From assembly GCA_963678705.1 (NCBI GenBank), contig OY783219.1, positions 4,464,001 through 4,528,000 of the forward strand: DNA of 64,000 bases, read 5' to 3'. This document shows, in pieces, positions 31-40,057 of this stretch. Below the pieces are notes generated by a model, which was not told where the DNA came from, did no database searches, and saw only the letters and a program-made list of their open reading frames with translations. Origin of the DNA: Panorpa germanica. Taxonomy: Eukaryota; Arthropoda; Insecta; Mecoptera; Panorpidae. The position numbers and the translations under genes are program-made. The first letter of the stretch is position 1; the number at the start of each line of letters is the position of its first letter.

Positions 31-1049
31 CATCTCGCAAATGAAAACAAGCCTTATCGTATGAAAGTTGTTGTAGAGGGATCAGAAGGTTCCAGGAGAA
101 CTTTCATTACTGGAGTCAAAGCTGTAACGTAATTTGTGTTTTATTTTGCTTTAAAATAACTCCAGAAGTAGCTAACACTAAGTTGTTTCCAGTGTGCTTT
201 GTTGTCAGTGCAGCTGTCGGATACTATTACAGTTTTTCTGGATCACCAGGGCAATGCTATGGGAGTGTCGCAAACTGTCTGGAGTACACAAGATACAGCA
301 TGCGAAGATTTAATTGATGAAACTGATGAATTTAACACCGATATATATTTGAAACATATGGAAGTTGCCCCCATGTAAGCCTCCCCACAAACAATGTTGA
401 CAAGATTCGTATAGGATTCGAACGGACTGAACCGAATCGCATTAGAATCGTATAAGATTCGTACGAGATTAAGAGAAGTTGTTTGTAGGGCTATTCGTAT
501 ATTAACAGCAGTAATTTCAGATGTGTAGTATCCGCTAAACAAAGTTACGCGTATTTAAGGTTTATGTAATATAACAAAACCTGTTAGGTCAACTATTTTA
601 CCTAATATAAATTATTTTGTAACTTATTTTACAAGAATTACAAAGTTTTGAGAATTCCTTTTTAAGGATTAAAGGGTTTTAGAATAGCTATAAAATAAGA
701 CACTTTCAGATTAAATATTACTAGATTTTCCTTGAGTAAAATATTACATAAATGTAAGGTAATATTTATGTTTTGTACGAATAATTTATTTTAAATGCAG
801 ACCCGACACTGCCAGTTACATCCAGAAATTGGAGAGAGAGAAGGAAGCCAGAGAAAGGGGAGAAGTTAAAGATAATAGATCTTTCTTAGCAAAATATGTA
901 AGATGACAACAATAAAACTGAATTTGTAATTCTGCTTTTATAATAAAAACATATTTTTGTTCTAGTGGATGTATATCGTTCCAGTAGCTATCTTTGTATT
1001 GATTTCTGGAGCAGCAAACCCAGAAGCAGGAGGCGGTGGTGGACGTTAA
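31..1049 (+). CDS. EMC10: EMC10, ER membrane protein complex subunit 10 (5' partial)
   Basis: This is the C-terminal part of EMC10, a subunit of the ER membrane complex that inserts transmembrane segments of client proteins. Visible coding exons are 31-123, 193-374, 801-897 and 966-1049; all junctions keep phase and the stop is TAA at 1047. The product runs from a lumenal beta-rich part (YRMKVVVEG, then CALLSVQLSD and a conserved cysteine in DTACEDL) through a charged helix (YIQKLEREKEARERG) to one C-terminal membrane segment (KYWMYIVPVAIFVLISG) and a glycine-rich end. This matches the order in human EMC10, including the KYWMYI(I/V)PV motif. The 5' exons with the signal peptide lie left of the window. 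The gene converges on mRpL59, with 179 bp between stop codons. Confidence 0.88.
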
Positions 1050-22601: not shown

Positions 22602-23321
22602 TGAAGAATGAAATCTTATTGAGAGGGGAACTATCAGAAAACTTGCCCCCTTACCAGAAATCTTATTGAAATAATTTTTATAATATATATACAACTGATA
22701 TTACGATATAACTGATATAAAAGCAATGTATTTAGTTTTTAATTTTTAATATAATCTTCTGAAAGTAATATGCGGTGTTTTACTGAATACATTTTTATAA
22801 AAATATATTCTCATTTGAGATCTTCAAATAGAGCTCATGATTATTAGGGAAAAGAAAAACTTGCAGTATAATATTATTAATTAAATGAGTTATAAAACAA
22901 ATAAATTGTCAGGTGAAAGAATCTGACAATATCTAAACCACCAACATGCAAAAAAGTATGAAAAAATCTGGCCTTTACTTCTGGCAGCAAGTCCTGATGA
23001 TGGTAATCCAAATTGTATCACTATATATGCACTTTTCAGGTTAGGGTATTGCTTAGATTTACACTTACACTATTTTAATTAAAATATTTGTTTAAAATTA
23101 ATCACTAATTAACACTAATTCATACCGAACACTTCTTTATACAATTTATAAGTTAATAGTTTGAGTTAAAAAATCCCGCGCGACGTACGAGTAACATGTC
23201 TCAGTAATAAAATACTCAAATTTGATTGAAAAACATCTTTTGAGTTAAAATAAAAACTACAAATAAGTCTTTATTTACAAATAAGTCTTTCAATTTATAA
23301 AACTCACTACTTTATAACTTT
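22602..23321. other. Spacer between the Ly6 gene and the tandem duplication
   Basis: AT-rich DNA with the 3' UTR of the Ly6 gene. No coding block. Sequence similarity to the downstream unit begins near 23,310 (CTACTTT ... CAACCATTTTC). Confidence 0.45.
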
Positions 23322-24533
23322 TTTCAACCATTTTCTTTAACACAAATATGTTTTTAATAATTCTGAAAAATTTCGGCTGTAACATTTAAACGTTTAAACT
23401 CAAAATGAAAACCAAATAGACGACTGCAGTGCCATCTTAAGAAAACAAATATTTAAATTCAAAATATGGCACGAAATTTAAAATATATAACTTTTATAAT
23501 ACATGTATATTAAAATGTTATATATTACAAATCGCTGGTATTTATACATTTTACCAGGATCATCTCAAGAATTAAAGAAAATTTTATTGCTGTTAAAAGT
23601 AAAAATTCATTCAATATTTTTAACAACAGTATAAGCTTTCTTAATCTCAAGAAATAAAGAAAATTTAGTTTTTGTTAAAGTTAAAAACTCTACATTTTCA
23701 TGGTAGATAACAATAGATCCGTTTATATCCAGTGTTAATGATAAGCATTCAATTTTATATGAAGAAAACTACTAATTATATGAATAAGAACACGCCTGGA
23801 TAACATGCAACACTTTTAGATTCTTTTTGTATTGAATGAACAAAATCATTAAAGTAATAAACAGAAATTTCTAAATATTTGTAACACTAGATGTGTTAGA
23901 TTATATTGTGAACTTAGTACATTATTTATGATATGAAATCTATAATAATTAGTATTTATATTACTAATTGAGCTTGTAAAATTAATATTTTTTCAAACAG
24001 TTGATCTGCTTTAAACCACCACAGATGACAGTAGTAATTAATTTTATAACGCCTGATCCGCATGCAACTATATATACACACCAACAACATTTACTTATTA
24101 AAGAGTTTAACTTATTAAGTTATTAAAAATAAGTTTTCTACTTATATCTTAGCTAAAATTACAAGCTTAAAGTTTTTTTTTAAGTAAAAGATTAATATTA
24201 AAAAAGTAAAGTGAAAATTTTCTTATATTTCAAAAGAAAAAACTTTTATAAGTTATAATTTTCTTAAAAACTAAAGAAAATGTTTAATTTTTAAAGTTTA
24301 AGAACTAAAATTTTCTTAACTTTTAAAGATAAGAGTTTCATTTCTTTGTAGAGTACAGCCATTGACCCACAATAAGTTCCTTTTCCTGAAAACCATAAAT
24401 ACAAAACACAAGATATTTAAATTACAAGTGTTGCATATATTAGAAATTTAGAATTTTAAATTTTATAACAAAAACATGTACATATACATAATTTATATAC
24501 AATTTCATTTAAAATACAATTTTGTATCATTAA

Positions 24534-24771
24534 TTAATCTTCTAGGTCCATTGTTGAAGATGCTGCTTCAGATCCTATCGTAGAGTCCTTGGTGTACTGC
24601 GTTATCCTGAAAAACAAAAACTTAGTAGGTAATGTAACAACAAAGTTATTTTAAATGAATTTCATTTACCTGTGCATTGCGTTTTGTACGTTCCCATCCA
24701 TTATTTTTGTTTTTCTTAGAGTAGGTGTATTATCCCATGTGATCCCCGTGTTCTTGTTTCTGCAGATGGTG
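24534..24771 (-). other. Downstream exons of gene A (3' UTR or relic cytoplasmic-tail exons)
   Basis: Two exons with good splice signals follow the gene A stop: 24771 (or 24759)-24670 and 24606-24534, after a donor CATTCAG|GTAACT at 24849. Read in one frame across the junction they are open for about 55 codons (CRNKNTGITWDN ... SEAASSTMDLED, then TAA) and look like a cytoplasmic tail. However, no phase-compatible donor joins them to the membrane segment. They are therefore most simply 3' UTR, perhaps a relic of an older C-terminus. Confidence 0.5.
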
Positions 24772-24870
24772 CTACGGATGAAATAGAAATTTAAATGTAA
24801 TATTTTATAATCAGAGTAATGAAGTTATTTTTAATGATGATGAGTTACCTGAATGTTTCCCCGTTGTTTC

Positions 24871-25374
24871 TTATTCGTATGTGATTACCAAGATGGTTCC
24901 AGCTGCTATTAGTACGACGAAGACCAGTAGTGAACACAACTGCAGGATGGATGCTCCCGACTTACTGGCGTCTGCTCCGCCTTCTCCTCCACTTGCACCA
25001 TCTCCTGCAGGGGCCGGGGTTATTTGGCCAAACCCGGCCTTACAAAAATAGTGGTCTTCAGCTCCACTTTCACCCTTCTTAATAAGATTTGCTGTCTCAG
25101 AAGTATCATACTTTTGATCGCTGCACCTGCACCTGCAGGTTTCGGGTCCACCGCGATATGTGGTATCAATTATTATCTTGTCCACAACTGCCTCTGCAAA
25201 CTTTTGCTGTAGATTGGGGCAGCAAGCTTTATCAGAATCAGCCCCACATTTTTTATCCATCGCTTCCAATTCGTCTATGCCAATCGGTTCTATATCTGCA
25301 CTAGCACACTTAAACCAAGTAACACATGCAAGTAACACCAGAATTACCGCAGCTTCTATTTTACAGACAAACAT
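24871..25374 (-). CDS. Gene A: secreted cysteine-rich protein with hydrophobic C-terminus (tandem copy 1)
   Basis: A 167-residue protein in one coding exon. A signal peptide (MFVCKIEAAVILVLLACVTW) is followed by an ectodomain of about 100 residues with eight cysteines (KC, KKCG, KACCPN, ETCRCRC, YFCKAG). A flexible Gly/Ala/Ser stalk (GDGASGGEGGADASKS) and a C-terminal hydrophobic run (LLVFVVLIAAGTILVI) ending in TYE complete it. That end fits a GPI-attachment signal or a membrane anchor with almost no tail. I recognise no family; the cysteine spacing is not that of Ly6, EGF or Kazal domains that I know. Copy B at 29,209 shares signal peptide, stalk and anchor but differs at many ectodomain positions. 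An acceptor-like TTTCAG at about 25,393-25,398 suggests a 5' UTR intron. Confidence 0.75.
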   Translation of the reverse strand: MFVCKIEAAVILVLLACVTWFKCASADIEPIGIDELEAMDKKCGADSDKACCPNLQQKFAEAVVDKIIIDTTYRGGPETCRCRCSDQKYDTSETANLIKKGESGAEDHYFCKAGFGQITPAPAGDGASGGEGGADASKSGASILQLCSLLVFVVLIAAGTILVITYE

Positions 25375-25380
25375 TGTCTG

Positions 25381-27385
25381 AAGATTAATTATTTATCTGA
25401 AACAAACGTTAAATTAATTGTTATTAAACTTAAATTTAATTGACTTTGTTAGGAATACGTTAAAACTGTTCAGACGGAGACGGCCTGATAATATGGAATT
25501 AAATACGATTATTAAAACAGTTCTTCTGGAATAAAGCAGTTACAATTTCAAAAGGCATTACATAACCATCTGTTACATTTATTTAACGTAAAACAAAATT
25601 ACCTTTTATATAGTTTTAGGTTAACATAAATTTAAGATTACATGAGCTATATTTATTACGTTAAATAATATCAGTTGATGTTTTAAGTTTTATGAAACAA
25701 TTAAAAAAACCTAAATTCAAGTAGATTCATACATTTTCTGAAAATAAAATGGATTAAGTTTTTCCTAATTTACAGAATAATTAAAAGTCACCTGGTTTTA
25801 TATCCAAATAATCACCTAAAATAATAAAAAAATTATAAATTATAAAAAATCACATTGTAAAAAATATTCAAAAAAAAATAAATTTCTATAAAAATAAATT
25901 TTCAAAAAATCAATGAATATTTTGTTTTACATTTGCTGTAGGTATATGATTACAACAATGAAAATAAATTGACCAATCAAAAGTGTTTAAATGGGTAACT
26001 AATTGCTGATTGGTGGACAACTACAATTAAAACAACTGATCTTTTCGAAATTAAATATTTTTTAATTGTATTTACGAGTAGGCGTTACTGTTAAAAATTA
26101 ATACTCAGGACCACGTGGTATTTTCTTAATGTAGGTGTATTTCATTATTTTAGAAAAAAAAATACCGTTTCTACTGTGGGTTATAATTAGCATAAATGTC
26201 AACGAGTAGTACTAAGTTTTAAAAGTAAATACAAAACCGGATGTACTGCTCTAATGCTAGCTCTGAAGAAAAAGAATTAATCCAAAATTTTATAAGATGA
26301 ACATTTTCTGTTTTAGGCGCGGGCCGTTAGCATTTACTAATTTAACTATATGGCCAATGCGGCACTGGTATAACCTTCTTTAATCTCAAGAGATGCAGAA
26401 AATGGTGTTTTTATTAAAATTAGAAATGCAATGTTTTTATCAGTTTTAAGAATAGTACCTATCGCAAGAAATTAAGTATTTGTAGATCAGTACAGTTTCG
26501 TATCTGATAACAAATTGCGTTTCTATCCAGTGGTAATGAATAGCATTCCATTTTATATGAATTACTAATTACACAGAAAAGTGGAATTTGAAAACGCCTG
26601 GATAATATGCAGCAACTTTTACATAATTTTGTACTACAGAGCGAATGAAGAAATTCATTAAAGTAATAAACGGATATTTCAATTATGTAACAAATTAATA
26701 AAATACTTATATAAAATTTATATTACTAACCAGCAAAGTTGCGTGCCTTAGACGGGCCCTGTATCAAAATTTGTTGCCGGCCCAAATGATGGGTAAAGAT
26801 TTTTCACAAAAGGAACAAAAACGCTCGCATTAAAATATAATAATTATATATTGATTATACGTTATTACTTACAATTAATACTCCTAGGAACTAAGCTAAG
26901 GAAGACCTAAGAGTTTAAGTGAGATTGTGGATAACATTTTACGAACTTTTGCCTAACAAACGTTTGGGACCCTTATAGACCGGGGGGCCCTTATCATCAC
27001 GGCAGTAGCTACGCCACTGGAAATAACCACAGGTTATTATTAAATATTATTAAATATTAGTTTCACAAATTGCATTATCAGCTAATTTTAAAACGCCTGA
27101 ACCACACGCAACTCTTTATACACACACGTAATTATATTACCTATTTAAAACTAAAAGAAATAAGTTACAACAATCTTATTATTTTTAACAAGAATACCTT
27201 CTTACTTGTCAAGAAATGCAGTTAAACTTATTTTATCTAAACTTAAAAATACAACATTTTTTATCAATTTTAAGAAGAGTATTATATATGCTTGTTACTT
27301 CTCAAGAAAATCTTATTGCTGTTAAAATTAAAAACACAATATTTTTATCACTTTTCTGTTGTTAAAGACTACACTCTGTTGAATC
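25381..27385. other. Upstream flank of gene A, including an old paralogous segment and TE fragment
   Basis: No coding block. It contains the promoter side of gene A, then from about 26,380 a diverged paralogue of 23,560-24,100 (shared landmarks: TCCAGTG, ACGCCTGGATAA, TTAAAGTAATAAAC, ACGCCTGA). A fragment at about 26,745-27,020 ends in TAGCTACGCCACTGG, a motif seen at the ends of common insect retroelements. All of this is repeated in unit B. Confidence 0.6.
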
Positions 27386-27655
27386 TATACTTAGCAACTA
27401 GCCCTGAAAATGGATGGCGCTGAAGCGTTATGTCTATACTCAGCCGTTGGGGCAAGTGAAGTATTTATAACTTTGTTATAATTATTATAAAGCCTCAATG
27501 AGTAGGAGGGTCGCGGTGGTGTGCGCAGAAGGGTCTGGTCGTGATACCGCCTGGAGCCGCCATCGGTGCAGATCTTGGTGGTAGTAGGAAATACAGTTAA
27601 ACAAGAGAAGTGCAAAAAGGATGCAGAACTAAACGGAGAAGCTACTTTTTACCTT
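27386..27655. other. Spacer between duplication units
   Basis: About 270 bp of higher GC between units A and B. It includes a roughly 45-bp segment (AACAAGAGAAGTGCAAAAAG ...) at about 27,597-27,640 that recurs at 32,606-32,650, downstream of unit B. A 74-codon open frame on the minus strand shows no family resemblance. Confidence 0.5.
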
Positions 27656-28872
27656 TTTCCAACCATTTTCTTTAACACAAATATGTTTTTAATAATCCAA
27701 AAAAACTTCGACTGTAACATTTAAACTCAAAATGAAAACCAAATAGACGACTGCAGTGCCATCTTAAGAAAACAAATATTTCAATTCAAAAATATGGCAC
27801 GAAATTTAAAATATATAACTTTTATAATACATGCATATTAAAATGTTTTAAAATGTTATATGTTACAAATCGCTGGTATTTATACATTTTACCAGGATCA
27901 TCTCAAGAAGTAAAGAAAATTTTATTGTTGTTAAAAGTAAAAATTCATCCAACATTTTTAACAAGAGTATAAATTTTCTTAATCTCAAGAAATAAAGAAA
28001 ATTTAGTTTTTGTTAAAGTTAAAAACTCTACATTTTCATGGTAGATAACAATAGATCCGTTTATATCCAGTGTTAATGATAAGCATTCAATTTTATATGA
28101 AGAAAACTACTAATTATACGAATTAGAACACGCCTGGATAACATGCAACACTTTTTGATTCTTTTTGTATTGAATGAACAAAATCATTAAAGTAATAAAC
28201 AGAAATTTCTAAATGTTTGTAACACTAGATAAATATTTATATTGTGAACTTAGTACATTATTTATGATATGAAATCTATATTAATTAGTATTTATATTAC
28301 TAATTGAGTTTGTAAAACTAATAATAATATAATAATTAATAATAATAATAAACAGCTGATCTGATGTTAAGCCATCATAGATTTTATAACGCCTGATCCG
28401 CATGCAACTATATACACACCAAAAACATTTACTTATTAAAGAGTTTAACTTGTTAAGTTATTAAAATACGTTTTCTACTTATATCTTAGCTAAAATTACA
28501 AGTTTTAAAGGTTTTTTTTAAGTAAAAGATTAATATTAAAAAAGTAAAGTGAAAATTTTCCTATATTTGAAAAGAAAAAACTTTTATAAGTTATTATTTT
28601 CTAAAAACCAAGAAAATGTTTAATTTTTAAAGTTTAAGAACTAAAATTTTCTTAACTTTTAAAGATAAGAGTTTCATTTCTTTGTAGAGTACAGCCATTG
28701 ACCCACAATAAGTTCCTTTTCCTGAAAAGCAATAAATACAAAACACAAGATATTTAAATACAAGTGTTGCATATATTAGAAATTTAGAATTTTAAATTTT
28801 ATAACAAAAACATGTACGTACATATACATAATTTATATACAATTTCATTTAAAATACAATTTTTATCATTAA

Positions 28873-29110
28873 TTAATCTTCTAGGTCCATTGTTGAAGAT
28901 GCTGCTTCAGATCCTAATGTAGAGTCCTTGGTGTACTGCGTTATCCTGAAAAATAAAAACTTAGTAGGTAATGTAACAACAAAGTTATTTTAAATGAATT
29001 TCATTTACCTGTGCGTTGCGTTTTGTACGTTCCCATCCATTATTTTTGTTTTTCTTAGCGTAAGGTTTTTATCCTATGTGAGCCCCGTGTTCTTGTTTCT
29101 GCAGATGGTG
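28873..29110 (-). other. Downstream exons of gene B (tail frame interrupted)
   Basis: Counterparts of the 24534-24771 exons: 29110-29009 and 28945-28873, with splice sites kept. In the frame that is open in copy A, the TGG codon is TAG here, so this tail frame is closed. This favours a 3' UTR role, or decay of an old tail in copy B. Confidence 0.5.
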
Positions 29111-29208
29111 CTACAAATGAAATAGAAATTTAAATGTAACATTTTATAATCAGAGTAATGAAGTTATTTTTAATGATGCTGAGTTACCTGAATGTTTCCC
29201 GTTGTTTC

Positions 29209-29715
29209 TTATACGTATGTGATTACCAAGATGGTTCCAGCTGCCATTAGTACGACGAAGACCAGTAGTGAACACAGCTGCAGGATGGATGCTTCTGACT
29301 TACTGGCGTCTGCTCCGCCTTCTCCTCCACTTGCACCATCTCCTGCAGAGGCCGGGCTTTTTTGGCCAAACCCGGCCTTACAAAAATAATGCTCTTCAGT
29401 TTCACTTGTACCCTTCTTAATAAGACAGTTTGCATCCGCCCCAGTAGTATACGCTACACCGTTGCACCTGCAAAAGCAGCCAACGGGTCCACCGCGATAT
29501 GTCGTCATTATTTCTATCGCAGCCACTTCTGCGTCGTCAAACTTTTGCTGTAGATTGGGGCAGCAAGCTTTATCAGAAGCAGCCCCACATTCATTATCAA
29601 TAATTTCCAATTCGTCTATTGAAATCGGTTTTATACCATCACCATTACACTTATCCCAAGTAACACATGCAAATAACGTCAGAATTACCGTAGCTTCTAT
29701 TTTACAGACAAACAT
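29209..29715 (-). CDS. Gene B: secreted cysteine-rich protein with hydrophobic C-terminus (tandem copy 2)
   Basis: A 168-residue paralogue of gene A in one coding exon. Signal peptide, stalk and C-terminal hydrophobic segment are almost unchanged. The ectodomain differs from gene A at 37 codons by replacement and at about 4 codons silently, and has one inserted codon that adds a ninth cysteine (ADANCLIKKG). The shared islands are KACCPNLQQKF, TTYRGGP, CRC, LIKKG and YFCKAGFGQ. No frameshift or stop, so the copy looks functional. Function unknown. The pattern of constant ends and variable ectodomain suggests a surface protein under diversifying selection, or exchange with another paralogue. 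Confidence 0.75.
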   Translation of the reverse strand: MFVCKIEATVILTLFACVTWDKCNGDGIKPISIDELEIIDNECGAASDKACCPNLQQKFDDAEVAAIEIMTTYRGGPVGCFCRCNGVAYTTGADANCLIKKGTSETEEHYFCKAGFGQKSPASAGDGASGGEGGADASKSEASILQLCSLLVFVVLMAAGTILVITYV

Positions 29716-31676
29716 TGTCTAAAGATTAATTATTTATCTGAAACAAACGTTAAATTAATTGTTATTAAACTTAAATTTAATTGACTTTGTTAGGAATACG
29801 TTAAAACTGTTCAGACGGAGACGGCCTGATAATATGGAATTAAATACGATTATTAAAACAGTTCTTCCGAAAGAAAGCATCTGTACATTTATTTAACGTA
29901 AAACAAAATTACCTTTTATATAGTTTTAGGTTAACATAAATTTAAGATTGCATGAGTTATATTTAGACTAAAAATTTACGTTAAATATCAGTTGATGTTT
30001 TGAGTTTAGTGGAACAATTAAAAAAACCTAAATTCAAGTAGATTCATACATTTTCTGAAAATAAAATGGATTAAGTTTTTCCTAATTTACAGAATAATTA
30101 AAAGTCACCTGGTTTTATATCCAAATAATCACCTAAAATAATAAAAAAATTATAAATTATAAAAAATCACATTGTAAAAATTCTTTAAAAAAAAATAAAT
30201 TTCTATAAAAATAAATTTTCAAAAAATCAATGAATATTTTGTTTTACATTTGCTGTAGGTATATGATTACAACAATGAAAATAAATTGACCAATCAAAAG
30301 TTTTTAAAATGGTAACTAATAGCTGATTGGTGGACAACTACAATTAAAACAACTGATCTTTTCGAAATTAAATATTTTCTAATTGTATTTACGAGTAGGC
30401 GTTACTATTAATAATTTATACTCAGGACCACGTGGTATTTTCTTAATGTAGGTGGATTTCATTATTTTAGAAAAAAAAATACCGTTTCTACTGTGGGTTA
30501 TAATTAGCATAAATGTCAACGAGTAGTACTAAGTTTTAAAAGTAAATACAAAACCGGATGTACTGCTCTAATGCTAGCTCTGAAGAAAAAGAATTAATCC
30601 AAAATTTTATAAGATGAACATTTTCTGTTTTAGGCGCGGGCCGTTAGCATTTACTAATTTAACTATATGGCCAATCCGGCACTGGTATAACCTTCTTTAC
30701 TCTCAAGAGATGCAGAAAATGGTGTTTTTATTAAAATTAGAAATGCAATGTTTTTATCAATTTTAAGAATAGTACCTATCGCAAGAAATTAAGTATTTGT
30801 AGATCAGTACAGTTTCGTATCTGATAACAAATTGCGTTTCTATCCAGTGGTAATGAATAGCATTTCATTTTATATGAATTACTAATTACACAGAAAAGTG
30901 GAATTTGAAAACGCCTGGATAATATGCAGCAACTTTTACATAATTTTGTACTACAGAGCGAATGAAGAAATTCATTAAAGTAATAAACGGATATTTCATT
31001 TATGTAACAAATTAATAAAATACTTATATGAAATTTATGTTACTAGCCAGTAAAGTTGCGTGCCTTAGACGGGCCCTGTATCAAAATTTGTTGAGGGGCC
31101 CAAATGATGGGTAAAGATTTTTCACAAAAGAATTATTACTTACAATTAATACTCCTAGGAACTAAGCTAAGGAAGACCTAAGAGTTTAAGTGAGATTGTG
31201 GATAACATTTTACGAACTTTTGCCTAACAAACGTTTGGGACCCTTATAGACCGGGGGGCCCTTATCATCACGGCAGTAGCTACGCCACTGGAAATAACCA
31301 CAGGTTATTATTAAATATTATTAAATATTAGTTTCACAAATTGCATTATCAGCTAATTTTAAAACGCCTGATCCATTATTTAAAAAAAAAATTCTTATAA
31401 AAAGAATTCTCTTATTATTTTTAACAAGAATACCTTCTTACTTGTCAAGAAATGCAGTTAAACTTATTTTATCCAAACTTAAAAGTACAACATTTTTTAT
31501 CAATTTTAAGAAGAGTATTATATATGCTTCTTACTTCTCAAGAAAATGTTATTGCTGTTAAAATTAAAAACACAATATTTTTATCACTTTTCTGTTGTTA
31601 AAGACTACACTCTGTAGGAACTATACTTAATTTACATATTATGGTTATATTCAAGATAAATGTTTTAATTTAAAAC

Positions 31677-32072
31677 AGTTGTTGAGTAGGTCAGTGCTGT
31701 GGTAACGTTTTGTAGCTGTTGGTAGTCGAATAATCAAGTCAAATCAAAGAATAATAAGTTTTCATTTTATTTAACCCTGTTACGGCAGGCATAATATTGA
31801 AATTTTATTGTTCCTTGAAATAGGTGTAAATAATATTTGATATTTTAATATATAAATACATATAGCAGAGATTTATGAGCTGTAAGGTTGGCAACGGCTG
31901 TGATGTCACAGCCTTTAATAATTAAAGAGACAAAATGACTTTTTTAATTGTTAATATCTCTTAACATATAAGGAGTTATTAACAAATAATTGGACATTTG
32001 AGGTTCTAGTAACCCACTTTATCAATATATAGTACACTTTTATAGAAATTAAGACACAGGACACAAGCCCAT
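31677..32072 (+). mobile_element. MITE-1 copy, 5'-truncated
   Basis: Matches the 3' two thirds of the complete MITE-1 at 50,675-51,278, ending in GGACACAAGCCCAT. Lies just beyond unit B, 3' of the orphan gene. Confidence 0.8.
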
Positions 32073-32251
32073 TGTAAAATGATAACTGTTATAAATTCCA
32101 TGTATAAATAAATAAATAGAATTGTTTGTATCTCGATAATAAGTAAAGGAAAAGGAATAATTTAAAGTCTGTTCAGTTCTGTGTATACTGCGACCTTCTT
32201 TTAATACAATAAATTACTTTATACATTTCAAAGGATAAGTTGTTGTGGCAT

Positions 32252-34427
32252 CTATTGCCTAAAGTTGTTGTGGCCTGGTCTTTCGCTGCCTAGAAGATGT
32301 CCCGCTAGCCCGTTGCGTCTTCGCTCTTTAGCTAGCCACTGCAGGAGGCGATAGTGCGGTATTTCGTGGAAAAATAATTCTCCGTGGGCGGTAATCATGT
32401 TGACAGCATTCGCGGCATCCAGCCCTGTTAGCAGCAAGGGATCGGGATAGCCTGGAATAATAAAATTAAGAATAGGGTTGCCTACAGTAACTCAAATTAT
32501 ACAAAACTGCGCTGTTTATTCATAAAGTTTGCTATCAAAACCTCAAATATTCAAGTCGTAATATTGTAAAAGTCCCCACTACCATTTACCATCCTTTACT
32601 ATCACAGTTAAACAAGAGAAGTGCAAAAAGGATGCAGAATTAAACGACGAACTACGGCAGCTGTTGCGCCGACCCATAATGTTTAAATATAATGTCGTGA
32701 TATAAAAGAAAAATAAATAAATGACGTCATCGACTTTTAAAACAAAACTCAAACTTTAAATAGATATATATCCGTAATTTTTAGATATTTAATAAAATAA
32801 AAACGCCAATATACGTGTATTAATTAATATTTAAATAAGGAATTAAAAAATGACCCCTACTCAAAATGTTATAGGAGGACATAACCTCTCTATCCAACAA
32901 AATGTAGATCCGTTGTTTATCATTTATAATTTAGGAAATACAAGCGCAATGAGCGCTTGAAATTGATGTTAATAAATGTGTATTGGCGTGTCTATTTTAT
33001 TAAATATCTAAATGTTGACGGAAATATAGTAATTAAAAGTTTGAATTGTAGTTTTAGCTCTAGAAATGGTCGGCCATATTTGTATGACGTGAAATGCGTT
33101 TTAACGTCAGTTATTTGTTGAGTAGATCAGTGCTGTGGTAATGTTTTCTAACTGTTGGTAGTCGAAATAATCAAGTCAAGTCAAAGAATAATAAGTTTTT
33201 ATTGTATTTAACCCTGTTACGGCAGACATAATATTGAAATTTTATTGTTCCTTGAAATAGCTGTAAATAATATTTGATATTTTGATATATAAATACATAT
33301 AGCAGAGATTTATGAGCTGTAAGGTTGGCAGCAGTTGTGATATCACATGCATTTGGAATGTGTACAACGTTATATCCCTTTAATAATTAAAGACACAAAA
33401 TGACTTTTTTAATTGTTAATATCTCTTAACATATAAGGAGTTCTTAAAAAAATAATTGAACATTTGAGGTTCTAGTAACCCACTTTATCAATATATAGTA
33501 CACTTTTATAGAAATTAAGACATAGGACACAAGCCTTACTCAATCCGTCGGAGTAGTCCGGAGTCTGATGTCCGGCGCGTTGATCGTTTGGTCCATATCC
33601 CATCGATGACGGATTTAGAGGTGGAATAAAGACCCCTTCAGGCCAAAGCGCTTCTTCAGGGTGTACGTTCAGCAAACCAGAGTTCACAAAACCTAGGCGA
33701 ACATTTAATATAGATTTTTTGTATATACGACATTTTTGGTTTTTTCATTTTCATCACAGTTCACTTTTAAAAATTTTAGATTTAAAAAAAAAACATACAC
33801 TGACATTTTTGACGTAGTTTAAGTGCGTCCGCACACGAGGCCACTGGTTGCAAACCTTAGTGAAAGACTGGTGTTGTTAATGAGAGAAAACGAGTGAGAG
33901 AAAACACACGGCACGAGCGAAACTAAACTGGTTTTGAGTACGTTTTCACCGACTCTGTTTCTCGGTCGCAGCGCATGCTTTTGATGGTGACATCATGAAC
34001 AGAGATGTGCACTATTCAAAAGTATTTCAATACATACAAATACCCCTATTATGCTATTGTTAAAAATTCTATAGAGTAACGAAACACGGCTCGACATGGC
34101 TTGTTTTTCGTTGCGCTGCTAGTTTGCAATCAGTCGACTCGTGTGTAGACGGTCTTACAAACCTATAGCACGATCTTCTAGCGCAATTTGCCGAACACTT
34201 GGTCGTGGGTATCCAGGATGCAAAAGAGGGGTATCATAGCTACTTCCTCCTGGAGCAGTTGCAAACCTGTGGTTAGCGGGCCTTCCCAATCTTCGGCTCA
34301 GGAATGGTGTTCCAACGCCGTGAGAAAACGAACTTATGGGTGTCACGAAAGTTACGTGACTTGAGTATGTATGGCAGTTCACCAGCGTCAGAAGAGCGGC
34401 TAATGGAATGAAAACCCCAAGTTGTAG
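32252..34427 (-). CDS. Orphan secreted-protein gene (three coding exons seen, 5' exon not found)
   Basis: Exons on the minus strand: 34427-34163, 33692-33540 and 32451-32252. The phases 0/1/1 fit exactly and the joined frame is open for about 205 codons to TAG at 32252. The visible start is a hydrophobic run (LGVFIPLAALLTLVNC) that reads as most of a signal peptide; an in-frame TAA just upstream of the acceptor means the initiating ATG lies in a further exon to the right. The mature part is rich in Pro, Gly, His and Arg and has basic sites (LSRRLGR, KERRRNG) that could be cleaved, so a peptide precursor is possible. The last exon has a well-formed helix (GLDAANAVNMITAHGELFFHEIPHYRLLQWL). I recognise no family. 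Composition is clearly richer in GC than the surrounding transposon DNA. Confidence 0.65.
32958..33536 (+). mobile_element. MITE-1 copy inside the orphan gene's last intron
   Basis: Collinear with MITE-1 from TGAAATTGATG to GACATAGGACACAAGCC. Its right end stops a few bases from the exon 33692-33540, so that the splice donor reads GTAAGG followed by CTTGTGTCC of the element end. Confidence 0.8.
34001..34060 (+). repeat. Fragment related to the hAT-type MITE
   Basis: CAGAGATGTGCA followed by CAAAAGTATTT resembles one end of the element at 8712-8885. The other end is not seen. Confidence 0.4.
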
Positions 34428-35560
34428 CTGCAAAGAAAGTTATATATAGTTGTAGTAGTAGCTTTATGGAAGAGAAATTCATTGCGCCTGAGTTTATGGC
34501 AAAACTAAAAACACCACAGAATCTATACAAGATAAAAAGGCTTTTATTAGAAAAGTTACAACGAGTGACGAGATTTTTATACCGTGACGAGATTTTTTTT
34601 ATCGTGACGAGATTTTTTGACTTTTAGCGTCCCCGGATTTTCCCCTGACTTTCCTGGAAACCCGTAATTTTGGAAAAACTGGAAAAAGTGTGAGCTCTTT
34701 TTTGCTGTATTTGTAAAAGATAGAAAGGTGAAATTTTACATATGGACTAACTTTGGTACCTAATTTACAAATCAGAAAAAAAAATCTTAAATTTTCAAAA
34801 AAAGTTGGTCAAATAATGAACAAATTGGATCAGTTGTAGTTGTTATATATAAAATAAATAAGGAACGAGTTAAATATTTCAATTTAAAAATGGAATTAAA
34901 ATTTGAAATGAAAATCAATGCACACATGAAAGACAGACGTCGCTTGCGACGGGGGTAAACTCTAGTATACCATATATTTTACGCTCGGCAGATGAAAGTA
35001 AAATTATATTTCGAAGCACAAAATAAAAACGATAATAATTAAATAGAAATAAATTGTATTAGTCAATTACATAAAATAGACAGCTGAGGGAAGTGTGGGA
35101 GAGGGACGGGGTATAGAGAGGTGCTCTTGGAAGCTTTGAACATGATGCAAGAATCACGCGCTGCAAATCATGGTGAAGAAACCTCGAGACAAAGAGACTG
35201 CTTTAGTTTATTGGAGGAAGGCACTTTATTTTGCTGCATTCAGGTATTATGCCATACAGGAGGTTTAAAAAGTAGAGCCAATGGTGTAGCCATGGAAGTA
35301 ATGGTTAACGCATAATAAATACAAAGGAAGAATAACTATTAAAATGAAATATATGTATTTAAGAAGACAGCGCCTGATGTTATGCAAACAAACTAGCACA
35401 TTATAAATCAGCTTTCAATATTTCAATTAAAATGATCTTTATTTTATAGCTATTTTAAAAGCCTGTAATTCTTAAAAAAGCGGTTTTAAGATTATATAAT
35501 CCTTGAAAAGAAGTTTTTAAAAAGTATTATAATCAAACTAAGGCCTGTCACACACTCCAA
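34428..35560. other. Non-coding DNA upstream of the orphan gene
   Basis: Includes a short tandem repeat of a 15-20 bp unit, GTGACGAGATTTTT, three copies at about 34,562-34,620. No convincing exon; the orphan gene's first exon may lie here or further right. Confidence 0.45.
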
Positions 35561-35812
35561 CCCAGTAAACATTTTGGAGTTACTTTGACATCATATTGAA
35601 GATGCGTATGATTTTTTTGTCATGAAAGAGTTCATTTATAGTTCAGTTTCTCATAATCGTTCATATGAAATGTCTGTTTTATCGGCTACAGATGACGGAA
35701 CCACTCCACCTGTCGGAATACAAATGAAGATAAAGTTGATGCGAACTATAATTGAAGTGAAATAGTGATAGAAACGTCACTAAATAGGGCACTTCACTAA
35801 ATGTTTACTGGG
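35561..35812 (+). mobile_element. MITE-2 copy
   Basis: 252 bp with ends CCCAGTAAACATTTTGGAGT and its partner ATGTTTACTGGG. Internal sequence (GACATCATATTGAAGATGCG ... GAAACGTCACTAAATAGGGC) is shared with four other copies. Confidence 0.85.
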
Positions 35813-37397
35813 CAAGCGTATTTAAGCGACAGCGAATTCAAGCCGACTTTCTTCTTCATTCTTTGCATGTGTTGTGTCACAATACATGCATACCACGTAC
35901 CGATACGACAGTACGCCAAGTCAAACTTGTGTACTGTAGAGTGTATTGGAGTTGTCTTGCACTAACATAATTTATCATCAGAGCAAACTTTTACTTTCAT
36001 TTTTATCGATACACCACTGTTATGAAAGAGACTATTGCATTCTCTTTTACATTTCTTTCATGTATTCGCTTGGTTAAAATTCGCTGATGTACGCTTCCAG
36101 TATGAGAGCTAAATAACGCCCATATTCGGACAGCTCTGTATTTTGAGTTCGTTACATTTACAGGGTTCGGATTGGTAAAGCGTAGTAGCGCGTATACGTC
36201 CGCCTAATGCACAAAAGAGTAGATATATTTTTAAATCGATAAAATAGGCCACAACACGTTATATACAGTACCGTATTAATCATGGCTCACTTCAAACAGG
36301 CCTATGCCAATTGTGACTAGATACAATAGATTTTGCGTGAGAGATAAAATAATATTTTTGGCTGATTTCCCTGATTTAGCCTAGGTACGCTGGGCTTCCT
36401 AAAAGTTAATCTGGTACTGGATGTATATTAGGTAAAATCGTTTACATACCATGTAACTTTTATTATGTTACATAATAAACGGCGGCGGCCTCAGGGGGTG
36501 ACAAGCAGGGCAACCGCCCAAAGCCTCGCGCAACAACCCAAGTAGAAAAATTCATTACTATATATATATATTCGAATCTCGCGCCTCGCCCTTTAGAAAT
36601 CCCACTAGAATCACTGCGTATATCTTTTAAGGCATGCATGTGCCTTAGTTTATCATCATTAATATTTGTGGTCTTTGTGCTTGTTAACTTTTATAAAACT
36701 TCCAATATAAAATTTTATTTCTTGTCAATTATCATCAAAAATACTTAGTCACAATTTACATAAATTATACAAAGAACAAGTGCCTCGCAAAGATCTGCCG
36801 CCCCTGAATATACGTAACTGTATTTAACGGGTGTTTCAGGGTTTAGCTAAGAACTACACCACTGCCTTAGCTTTATTTTTGCATAATTCGCATAGATGTA
36901 TGTATGTATGCTTCTAAGACGACCACGGCGGCAGTGAAGGTTTTTTCAATCTTTATAAGAGTTATGTTCGATCCTTCACTTGCATTAGATACATAAAATA
37001 TGTAACACATAAAAACAAATCATTGAATTTATAAAGTTGAATAGATAATGATAATGAAATCAACAAAACACACATTCAAACAAACCGCCTTATAACTTCC
37101 AAGATTTGATTTAAACGTTTATAGCTTTGTTTGAAAATTGCAACGCAATAGTTGATGGTCATGATTATCGCCAATATCAATCACCTCTCCCCCTCTGTCC
37201 AATCCGACAACCCTCACAATAAACAGAATGATGAAATAATGACGCTGCAACAATTCTAACAATGTTAGTGAGACAAAATGAGCAGAGAAATTTACTTGTC
37301 AAAAATGTCGGACATGTTGTAAAAAGATTCTAATCAAAAATGAAATAAATTTTTAGATTTTTATCACAGTGACTTTAGAGAATTTTGAATAAACAGA
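35813..37397. other. Repeat-rich intergenic DNA
   Basis: No coding block. A GC-richer patch at 36,478-36,600 (GGCGGCGGCCTCAGGGG ...) resembles decayed retroelement sequence. Otherwise AT-rich and featureless. Confidence 0.4.
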
Positions 37398-38008
37398 TTG
37401 TCCTATGTCTTAATTTCTATAAAAGTGTACTATGTATATATTGATAAAGTGGGTTACTAGAACCTCAAATGTTCAATTATTTTTTAATAACTCCTTATAT
37501 GTTAAGAGATATTAACAATTTAAAAAGTCATTTTGTCTCTTTAATTATTAAAGGTATTCAACGTTGTACACATTCCAAATGCATGTGACATCACAACCGC
37601 TGCCAACCTTACAGCTCATAAATCTCTGCTATATGTATTTATATATCAAAATATCAAATATAATTTACAGCTATTTCAAGGAACAATCAAATTCCAATAT
37701 TATGTCTGCCTTAGCAGGGTTAAATAAAATGAAAACTTATTATTTTTTGACTTGACTTGATTATTTGGCTACCAACAGCTACAAAACATTACCACAGCAC
37801 TGACCTACTCAACAAATAACTGACAAACTGTCATACAAATATGGCCGACCATTTCTAGTGCTAAAACTACAATTCAAATTTTGAATTGCTATATCTCCGT
37901 CAACATTTAGATATTTAATAAAATAGACACGGTAATACACATTTATTAACATCAATTTCAATCAACAATTGAAAAATCGACCACTAAAAAATGAGGACAC
38001 AAGCCCAT
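37398..38008 (-). mobile_element. MITE-1 copy, nearly complete, minus orientation
   Basis: Reverse complement of the 50,675-51,278 element over its full length, ending AGGACACAAGCCCAT at 38,008. The left end has lost a few terminal bases. Confidence 0.85.
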
Positions 38009-38334
38009 TAAACTTAGTTCGTTTCTTACTCGGATGATAGTGGTCCATTGTCTTCTTAATGTCTGCTTTGCTCGTGCAGTCGCTCTACTATTCTAGAAAC
38101 AATTAGAACAGCCCTGGGTGGCGAAGCGAGTAGCGACTTCGCCGTCAAAGCACGTACCTCTCGCTTACTGCTTCTAAATAATTATGGTGACCATTAATTA
38201 TAGTTGTTAGCAGTTATTTTTAATTACAGACTGCGAACAGATCCGAGTAACCCATAAATATACATTTATGTAGCATTTACGTTCAAATTCGGTAAACTTC
38301 AATAGTTCTAGCGACAAAAAATAACTGACATCAT

Positions 38335-38806
38335 AGTAAACATTTTGGAGTCACTTTGACATCATATTAAAAAACGTATTTATTTACAGTTTATTTTCTC
38401 ACAGTCGTTCTTATGAAATGTCTATTTTATCGGCTACAAATGGCGAAACCACTCCACCTGTCGTAATACAAATGAAGATAAAATTGATGCGAACTATAAT
38501 TAATAGTGATAGAAACGTCACAAAACAAGACACTTCACCAAATTGTTTACTACCCAGTAAACAATTTGGTGAAGTGCTCTATTTAGTGACGTTTCTATCA
38601 CTATTTCACTTCAATCATAGTTCGCATTGACTTTATCTTCATTTGTATTACGACAGGTGGAGTAATTTCGCCATTTGTAGCCGATAAAACAGACATTTCA
38701 TATGAAAAAATGTGAGAAACTGAACTATAAATGAACTCTTTTATGACAAAAAAATCATGACGCATCTTCAATATGATGTCAAAGTGACTCCAAAATGTTT
38801 ACTGGG
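38335..38806. mobile_element. Head-to-head pair of MITE-2 copies
   Basis: One copy (38,335-38,551, +) meets a second (38,553-38,806, -) at TTTACTACCCAGTAAA, forming a large inverted repeat of about 470 bp. The first copy has lost its outer terminal bases and part of its interior. Confidence 0.85.
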
Positions 38807-40057
38807 CTGGGAGACTACTACTTCTACTTTACAAGCTTATATTTTAATGTTTATCAATACAGCACCATGTTAAAAGAAATAAAAGTACGTATTATATATT
38901 TGTTCGTTTTCCACTCTCTCATCGGTGAGTCGTTCGTTATAAATCGTATATTTCACAGATAGACGATAAAAATAAATTGTAAATGCTCTAGCCGGTATTT
39001 ATAATTCATAACTAGCACCAGTGACGTTCACCGAAGTTATAGGAAATGTAAAAGCATTTCAATTTTGTATAAAATCGTTTTGTTTTATGATTCTAAAGAT
39101 ATATTATAATCCTGTAGCCCTTAAAAAGGTCTTCTACAGATTTTTATGATTATTTTAATCTGAAAAATATAATTCTATGATTTTAATAGCAATAACTCCT
39201 CCAAAATTTAAGCGTGAAAGAAATTTTTGTTTATTGTCCCGCCAAATTTTTCTGTACTTGAATTCAAGTAGACGAAGCCCTTCACACCATCATCAACGGT
39301 TTAAGTTACTTGACCAAGAGAATGAGTCTCACAGATCAAATGTCTGTCGTCTACATGATAACTCAAGTACTAACTGACTCTGTATTAAATAACAAAACAC
39401 CTTGGCATGGTTTAATAAAATAAAATGCGTCCGCGATCTAAGTAGAGTACTCTAGGTGCTCCCCCTCCCCCCGACCCCCTTACCCACTCCTCGTAGTCCT
39501 AGTACAAGACATTCGTCATATCGATTTACTGCAGGCGTTTTCTTTTAAGTCAACATGGATTTTAATGCACTGTATGCATTTCTTGCAGTTTTTATAGCAG
39601 CAACAATTTAACAGTTTTGCTCTTTGAAAATAGGTTAAGAATGAGTGCCATTTTGACAACTTTCAAATTCATTACTTAGTTATCATTAATTACTGCTGAT
39701 ATAGACATTTAAGTTAAAGCTATTAAGAGTTAAAGTAAATTAGATTTTTAATTGCGCACACACGATAAAGGTGAGCGTCCACCGGTCTACAGAACGCGAC
39801 TGTTTTATCGTATGGAACACAGAAGAGAAGCAACAGGCTTGTATAACGTGATAATTTTATCTAGAATGATTTATCTTTAGAACATTCGGTAATCCGGTAT
39901 GGCCGTAGGTCCGAACATGCCGGATTAAATATAGGTTACTGCATTATCATATAAAGTACAATTTCGTCAGTTCGGTACAGTCATGAGCACGGTCGTACCG
40001 TATTATTATAATTGCCAAATTATCGATTGTTAATAAAGTTAATAAAAATAAAATAAA
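38807..40057. other. Repeat-rich intergenic DNA
   Basis: No coding block seen. The segment near 39,890-39,945 (GGTAATCCGGTATGG ... CGGATTAAAT) looks like debris of a DNA transposon end. Short cytosine runs lie at 39,464-39,482. Confidence 0.4.

Follow-up and report, generated by a model that had tools for sequence, protein, structure and literature searches.

What keeps the middle of two neighboring genes changing while the DNA on either side of it stays almost the same? The question is raised by a 64,000-nucleotide stretch of chromosome 16 of the scorpionfly Panorpa germanica (C16:4464001-4528000, hereafter the window), in which two genes for small cysteine-rich proteins, A and B, stand as intact open reading frames (ORFs) on the minus strand, in direct tandem copies about 4.3 kb apart. 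The answer that we favor, at a probability of about 0.6, is that A and B are a young pair with selected loops between fixed cysteines, homogenized ends and a surface that may serve in recognition or as a decoy. The parts of the pair are as follows.

23307..27393, no strand given: tandem duplication unit with A, from its blastn match to the B unit
27642..31629, no strand given: tandem duplication unit with B, from its blastn match to the A unit
24871..25374, minus strand: coding exon of gene A, 167 amino acids, with signal peptide, seven-cysteine ectodomain, Gly/Ala/Ser linker and hydrophobic C-terminal tail
25306..25374, minus strand: signal peptide of A, codons 1-23, hydrophobic core at residues 8-19, exact cleavage site not predicted
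25024..25305, minus strand: variable ectodomain of A, codons 24-117, differing from B at 61 of 282 sites
24871..25023, minus strand: linker, glycosylphosphatidylinositol (GPI)-like tail and stop codon of A; hydrophobic window 149-164, then 3 residues
29209..29715, minus strand: coding exon of gene B, 168 amino acids, one codon more than A (Cys97)
29362..29646, minus strand: variable ectodomain of B, codons 24-118, from the A/B alignment
29209..29361, minus strand: linker, GPI-like tail and stop codon of B, from hydropathy

A middle that diverges faster than its flanks

An earlier note on this DNA had described direct copies of about 4 kb with nearly identical flanks, and that description holds. 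The two duplication units align by blastn over 4123 columns at 90.9% identity (gaps and the coding part counted), and their non-coding flanks differ at only 129 of 3448 aligned sites (3.7%), against 21.6% for the ectodomain (Fisher P 7e-25). The note had counted 37 replaced codons, about 4 silent ones and one insertion in the ectodomain; our recount is close, with 33 of 93 codons replaced, 4 changed silently and one inserted in B over codons 24-117, or 36 replaced and 4 silent-only of 102 over codons 19-121. The ends of A and B are, as it had also stated, nearly unchanged: 3 of 18 codons are replaced in the signal peptide (codons 1-18), and 4 of 47, with 2 further silent-only changes, in codons 122-168. 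By codon position, the differences within the 93 ectodomain codons number 18 at the first, 25 at the second and 19 at the third. The same contrast between flanks and ectodomain is seen in p8 and p10, two other copies that lie inverted and 15 kb apart, whose upstream sequences differ by 3.1%, downstream sequences by 4.0% and ectodomains by 19.0%.

The family and its protein design

The paralogues for which the earlier note had proposed a genome search do exist. A protein search of the genome (464,208,970 bases, 249 contigs) gave 20 places, namely 14 copies of the A/B type (p14 in two pieces) and five distant ones; thirteen of the 14 copies are on C16, between 4.49 and 9.45 Mb, and one is on C10. 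Twelve have an ORF running from signal peptide to hydrophobic tail, and p13 and p14 are broken. Queries with two further members raised the distant loci of this wider CxCRC set to 14, on C1, C3, C4, C5, C6 and C20, of which 7 are to be taken as candidates, with E-values of 0.26 to 0.94 plus the cysteine pattern. That pattern, C..CC..CxCRC..C, is kept in 12 of the 14 distant loci and is absent from the C5 locus and from one C20 locus. In an alignment of 19 among 26 sequences, no variation is seen in six cysteines or in the arginine of CxCRC, and almost none in the seventh cysteine.

By hydropathy alone, all 12 ORFs have the hydrophobic core of an N-terminal signal peptide, and all 12 end in a hydrophobic stretch without a cytoplasmic tail, with 0-4 residues past the hydrophobic window. 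The family consists of small secreted proteins, probably GPI-anchored. One may speculate that the odd number of cysteines, seven in the scaffold with the extra Cys97 of B, would permit an intermolecular bond. No Pfam family was matched by full-length A or B; the 19 ectodomain pieces, searched at E up to 1, hit six families with one piece each, the best being Toxin_4 at E 0.00075 and the others at 0.088-0.31, and we judge these to be chance matches. Two sequence searches of the PDB gave best E-values of 4.2 and 1.4, neither of them a convincing relative, and no viral relative appeared among 21 pattern matches. AlphaFold2, given an alignment of A and B only, returned a predicted local distance difference test score (pLDDT) of 40 and a predicted template modeling score (pTM) of 0.27.

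Evidence for selection on the ectodomain

Among the 11 chromosome-16 ORFs, the proportion of replacement differences (pN) in the ectodomain exceeds the p-distances of both flanks in all 55 pairs, and the silent proportion (pS) likewise exceeds the downstream-flank p-distance in all 55. It is the site models, fitted with purpose-written code and with branch lengths fixed up to scale from M0, that argue for selection. For 12 genes and 91 ectodomain codons, twice the log-likelihood difference (2dL) is 18.7 for M1a/M2a, 20.2 for M7/M8 and 17.0 for M8a/M8, with a selected class of 22% of sites at a replacement-to-silent rate ratio (omega) of 3.3 under M2a, or 26% at 2.15 under M8. More starting points reproduced the M1a/M2a value (18.67). 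Eight sites have a posterior above 0.9: A26, G32, K41, A45, E78, K88, E102 and D107. Run from several starting points, the same comparison gives 25.0 on the 78 gap-free codons, 28.5 when A and B are left out (10 genes), 22.9 on the tree of the 3' segment (11 genes) and 33.2 for the C-terminal half of the ectodomain, while neither the signal peptide (0.0, P 1) nor the linker and tail (5.0, P 0.08) is significant. In 48 null simulations (16 plain, 16 with 5% multinucleotide change and 16 with recombination) the highest 2dL was 9.1, so that none reached 18.7.

A separate set of four genes, at C1:26956452, C1:28215112, C1:28779455 and C6:712410, forms a second subfamily in which the site class with omega above 1 is again significant (M1a/M2a 2dL 23.1). 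Here the tails differ by 0 to 10.8%, the signal peptides by 3.2 to 17.5%, the ectodomains by 20.8 to 27.3% and the upstream flanks by about 5 to 12% (blastn matches, gaps included). Two of these tails, separated by 1.8 Mb, have the same sequence over 93 nucleotides. Two subfamilies of similar design offer a natural replicate for the study of a variable middle between shared ends. Hence, of the earlier note's proposal of selection on a variable surface over a fixed scaffold, the scaffold stands, and the selection is supported by the site models on the 12 genes and on the four-gene set, but not by A and B taken by themselves.

Mosaic structure and probable recombination

The upstream, ectodomain and 3' segments each reject the trees of the other two (approximately unbiased test, P 0.039 or less, with 1000 replicates, which the program flagged as few). 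The clearest mosaic is the pair p4/p11, which differs by 4.2% in the signal peptide, 4.7% downstream and 43.6% in the ectodomain. The alternative raised in the earlier note, a mosaic with an ectodomain imported by conversion, therefore stands insofar as the segment trees conflict, and is not supported for A and B themselves: their ectodomains group together with 100% bootstrap support, and among the paralogues of the assembly no clear donor was found for either. Another paralogue beats the sister copy in short 30-nucleotide windows only, 8 of A and 4 of B, the best of them matching p7 at 27 of 30 positions, as against 22 of 30 for B.

Weighing the explanations

In the explanation that we prefer, A and B would be a young tandem pair in a family where selection keeps altering the loops that lie between cysteines fixed in place. 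Recombination between the copies, by gene conversion or unequal exchange, would homogenize the promoter and the signal peptide together with much of the 3' part, and conversions that erase ectodomain differences would be lost or selected against, so that each copy would present a different surface behind common expression and anchoring parts. The least certain step is that this surface may serve for recognition, or as a decoy, toward a partner that itself evolves fast; contact with a changing partner fits the GPI-like tail, the fixed cysteine scaffold and the selected loops, and such change is what an arms race would lead one to expect. As that partner we would rank first a parasite or pathogen, at somewhat less than even odds, and second a mating or gamete partner, which we think unlikely though well worth keeping in mind.

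A number of results weigh against this explanation, and several of them speak for its most serious competitor, in which there is no adaptation at all: the duplications would be old, their flanks and ends homogenized by conversion, and the ectodomain, under ordinary or relaxed constraint, would simply show its true age. The excess of replacement change that the earlier note saw in A and B does appear in pairwise maximum likelihood, at omega 1.86 (replacement rate dN 0.313, silent rate dS 0.168), but omega of 1 is not rejected (2dL 2.31), nor is it for p8/p10 alone (1.48, 2dL 0.8). For A and B a dS of 0.035 is rejected (2dL 8.77), the estimate being roughly fivefold that of the flanks; the ectodomain does not simply lack silent change, which corrects the first reading. 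Across the family dN exceeds dS in only 1 of the 55 pairs (in one further pair dS is undefined), and since pS is raised as well, pairwise averages do not show selection. The fold classes of silent sites in unchanged ectodomain codons divide the evidence: at two- and three-fold sites 3 of 38 differ in A/B and 5 of 35 in p8/p10, and the pooled 8 of 73 exceeds the 3.7% of the A/B flanks (P 0.006), whereas at four-fold sites 1 of 22 and 0 of 23 differ, and the pooled 1 of 45 is no more than in the flanks. All folds together give 9 of 118, a mild excess (P 0.03). From these counts, silent change is raised somewhat at unchanged residues and more at changed ones; in the A/B pair this may come from selection that hit the same codons repeatedly, from multinucleotide change or from ectodomain segments of greater age. 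Over 64 pooled pairs, four-fold silent differences number 372 of 802 in the ectodomain against 106 of 736 in the tail, which with the conflicting segment trees again favors old duplication. Nor are the ends constant everywhere: the linkers and tails of p8/p10 are 15.0% different and those of p4/p11 20.2%, and the latter pair differs by 11.6% upstream. The two- and three-fold counts and the divergent tails of these two pairs weaken the simplest form of our explanation. The second subfamily adds downstream flanks that differ by 13 to 25% (blastn, gaps included), so that its contrast is of ectodomain with tail and upstream flank, not with downstream flank, and a single omega of 1.27 that is not significantly above 1, as is also true of each of its 6 pairs. 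In the A/B-type family the signal from the N-terminal ectodomain half is weak (P 0.04), multinucleotide change can mimic selection (2 of the 16 simulations that included it passed 5.99), and the anchor is placed by hydropathy only. The GENECONV-style run test, with P of 0.002 or less, uncorrected, in 26 of 55 pairs, assumes equal rates along the gene, and its flank runs could reflect constraint; constraint on the promoter and the untranslated regions (UTRs) could account for part of the low divergence of the flanks, and the tree conflict is the better evidence of recombination. Against an old duplication without adaptation stand the four-fold sites and the class of sites with omega above 1 in two subfamilies, and we regard it as unlikely, though a real contender.

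Other readings keep the adaptation and change its agent or its mechanism. Gamete proteins commonly evolve with such a fast-changing pattern, and the surface could be that of a sperm, seminal or egg protein driven by sperm competition or sexual conflict; P. germanica is a study model for sperm competition, according to PMC11464959, but nothing in the loci appears to point to testis or ovary, and we hold this reading to be doubtful. Less probable in our judgment is a wholesale swapping or hypermutation of short segments of the ectodomain, a mutational mechanism plus selection of the kind called accelerated segment switch in exons to alter targeting (ASSET). The clustering of changes favors it and counts against our explanation: adjacent differing nucleotides number 29 in A/B against 13.6 expected (0 of 5000 shuffles as high) and 18 in p8/p10 against 8.9 (P 0.0008), and codons with two or three changes number 19, of the 37 that differ, against 11.6 in A/B and 14 against 7.9 in p8/p10. 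However, runs of replaced codons are no longer than chance (P 0.12 and 0.25), a donor was not found, and selection returning to the same codons would likewise place several changes within one codon. We give rather little credence to a still larger proposal, a repertoire of interchangeable ectodomain cassettes, evolved in an insect lineage, with promoter, signal peptide and anchor kept common by recombination, in which shuffled and locally hypermutated ectodomains would furnish individuals with different sets of receptors or decoys; if true, a variable receptor system would have its analogue in an invertebrate. Finally, A and B might be alleles misassembled in tandem, or a real duplication might have captured old balanced alleles, and a flank divergence of 3.7% is within the range of insect heterozygosity. 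This we consider very improbable: the window contains no N, p8 and p10 repeat the contrast in inverted positions, and PMC11464959 gives 52-fold high-fidelity (HiFi) read coverage and the removal of 14 haplotypic duplications.

Gene anatomy outside the coding exon

Outside the coding exon the copies share further elements, whose splice sites were all placed from sequence pattern.

25733..26099, minus strand: block upstream of A that recurs in the family, with an inverted CCAAT box (25966-25983) and a putative 5' UTR exon that ends at 25792
30050..30418, minus strand: block upstream of B, with its CCAAT box at positions 30283-30300
24534..24606, minus strand: putative 3' UTR exon of A; one frame reads ITQYTKDSTIGSEAASSTMDLED
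28873..28945, minus strand: putative 3' UTR exon of B, from matches across copies

A DNA search with the upstream copy of B (29984-30400), in which only the best candidates were scored, gave a list of 13 places, all of them at family members already known; p13 was missing from it. The inverted CCAAT box is present in 13 of the 14 copies, a SOX-like motif in 12, and a putative 5' UTR donor, CAG|GTGA, also in 12 (none in p7 and p12). An acceptor lies directly before the ATG in 13 copies, a donor past the stop codon in 10, and a further downstream acceptor in 13. For the last exon-like stretch, 10 copies, of which p6 has a stop in it, match over the whole length and p5, p8 and p10 over part of it, with no match in p12. 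This stretch (24534-24606 and 28873-28945) matches across copies despite its position past the stop codon, and may be what is left of a cytoplasmic tail that the protein once had; a reading frame of the last downstream exon is common to most copies. A transmembrane isoform made via the downstream exons was considered and rejected, the penultimate exon having in-frame stops in B and p5 (and in others by a reading of the alignment). Because of these stops and the donor past the stop codon, both downstream exons are treated as UTR.

Repeats accompany the genes as well. A stretch of about 73 nucleotides 3' of A (24254-24326) is repeated in rows, at intervals of about 86 nucleotides, downstream of p6 and of p11 and to either side of p3. 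Beside the B unit, positions 31662-38810 hold several direct and inverted repeats that resemble short mobile elements. Elsewhere in the genome, 19 of the 20 listed matches to COX1 fall outside the mitochondrial contig, two of them below the curated cut-off, on C1, C3, C5, C6, C10, C12, C15, C16, C21 and C115; to judge by such matches, mitochondrial DNA seems often to have been copied into chromosomes.

Comparison with known systems

Ly6/uPAR proteins are small, cysteine-rich, GPI-anchored multigene proteins, and the family described here resembles them in size, cysteine content, signal peptide, GPI-like tail and multigene character. It departs from the Ly6 cysteine order in having CC near the N-terminus and CxCRC in the middle, and the Ly6 profile of Pfam found no match in full-length A or B or in the 19 ectodomain pieces. 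No paper on this CxCRC family was among the matches listed for insect GPI families, Panorpa, scorpionflies, Mecoptera and flea salivary proteins. The promastigote surface antigens of Leishmania are likewise a surface multigene family, and the title of one report names positive selection and recombination (PMC2584048); they are leucine-rich repeat proteins of a protozoan parasite, and the likeness is drawn by description, not sequence.

A further parallel is offered by the three-finger toxins and phospholipases A2 (PLA2) of snakes, for which PMC2711939 describes coding parts that change more than UTRs and introns do, and surface segments that are switched (ASSET). Signal peptide and cysteines are conserved there as here, with the coding part changing more than its surroundings, but the toxins are secreted in venom, whereas the insect protein is probably membrane-anchored and has another cysteine pattern. 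By this analogy the mode of evolution is one already known from snake toxins, in a CxCRC family that is without a convincing Pfam or PDB relative; and should further individuals and other species bear out the selection signal, it would mark molecules where scorpionflies meet a fast-changing partner.

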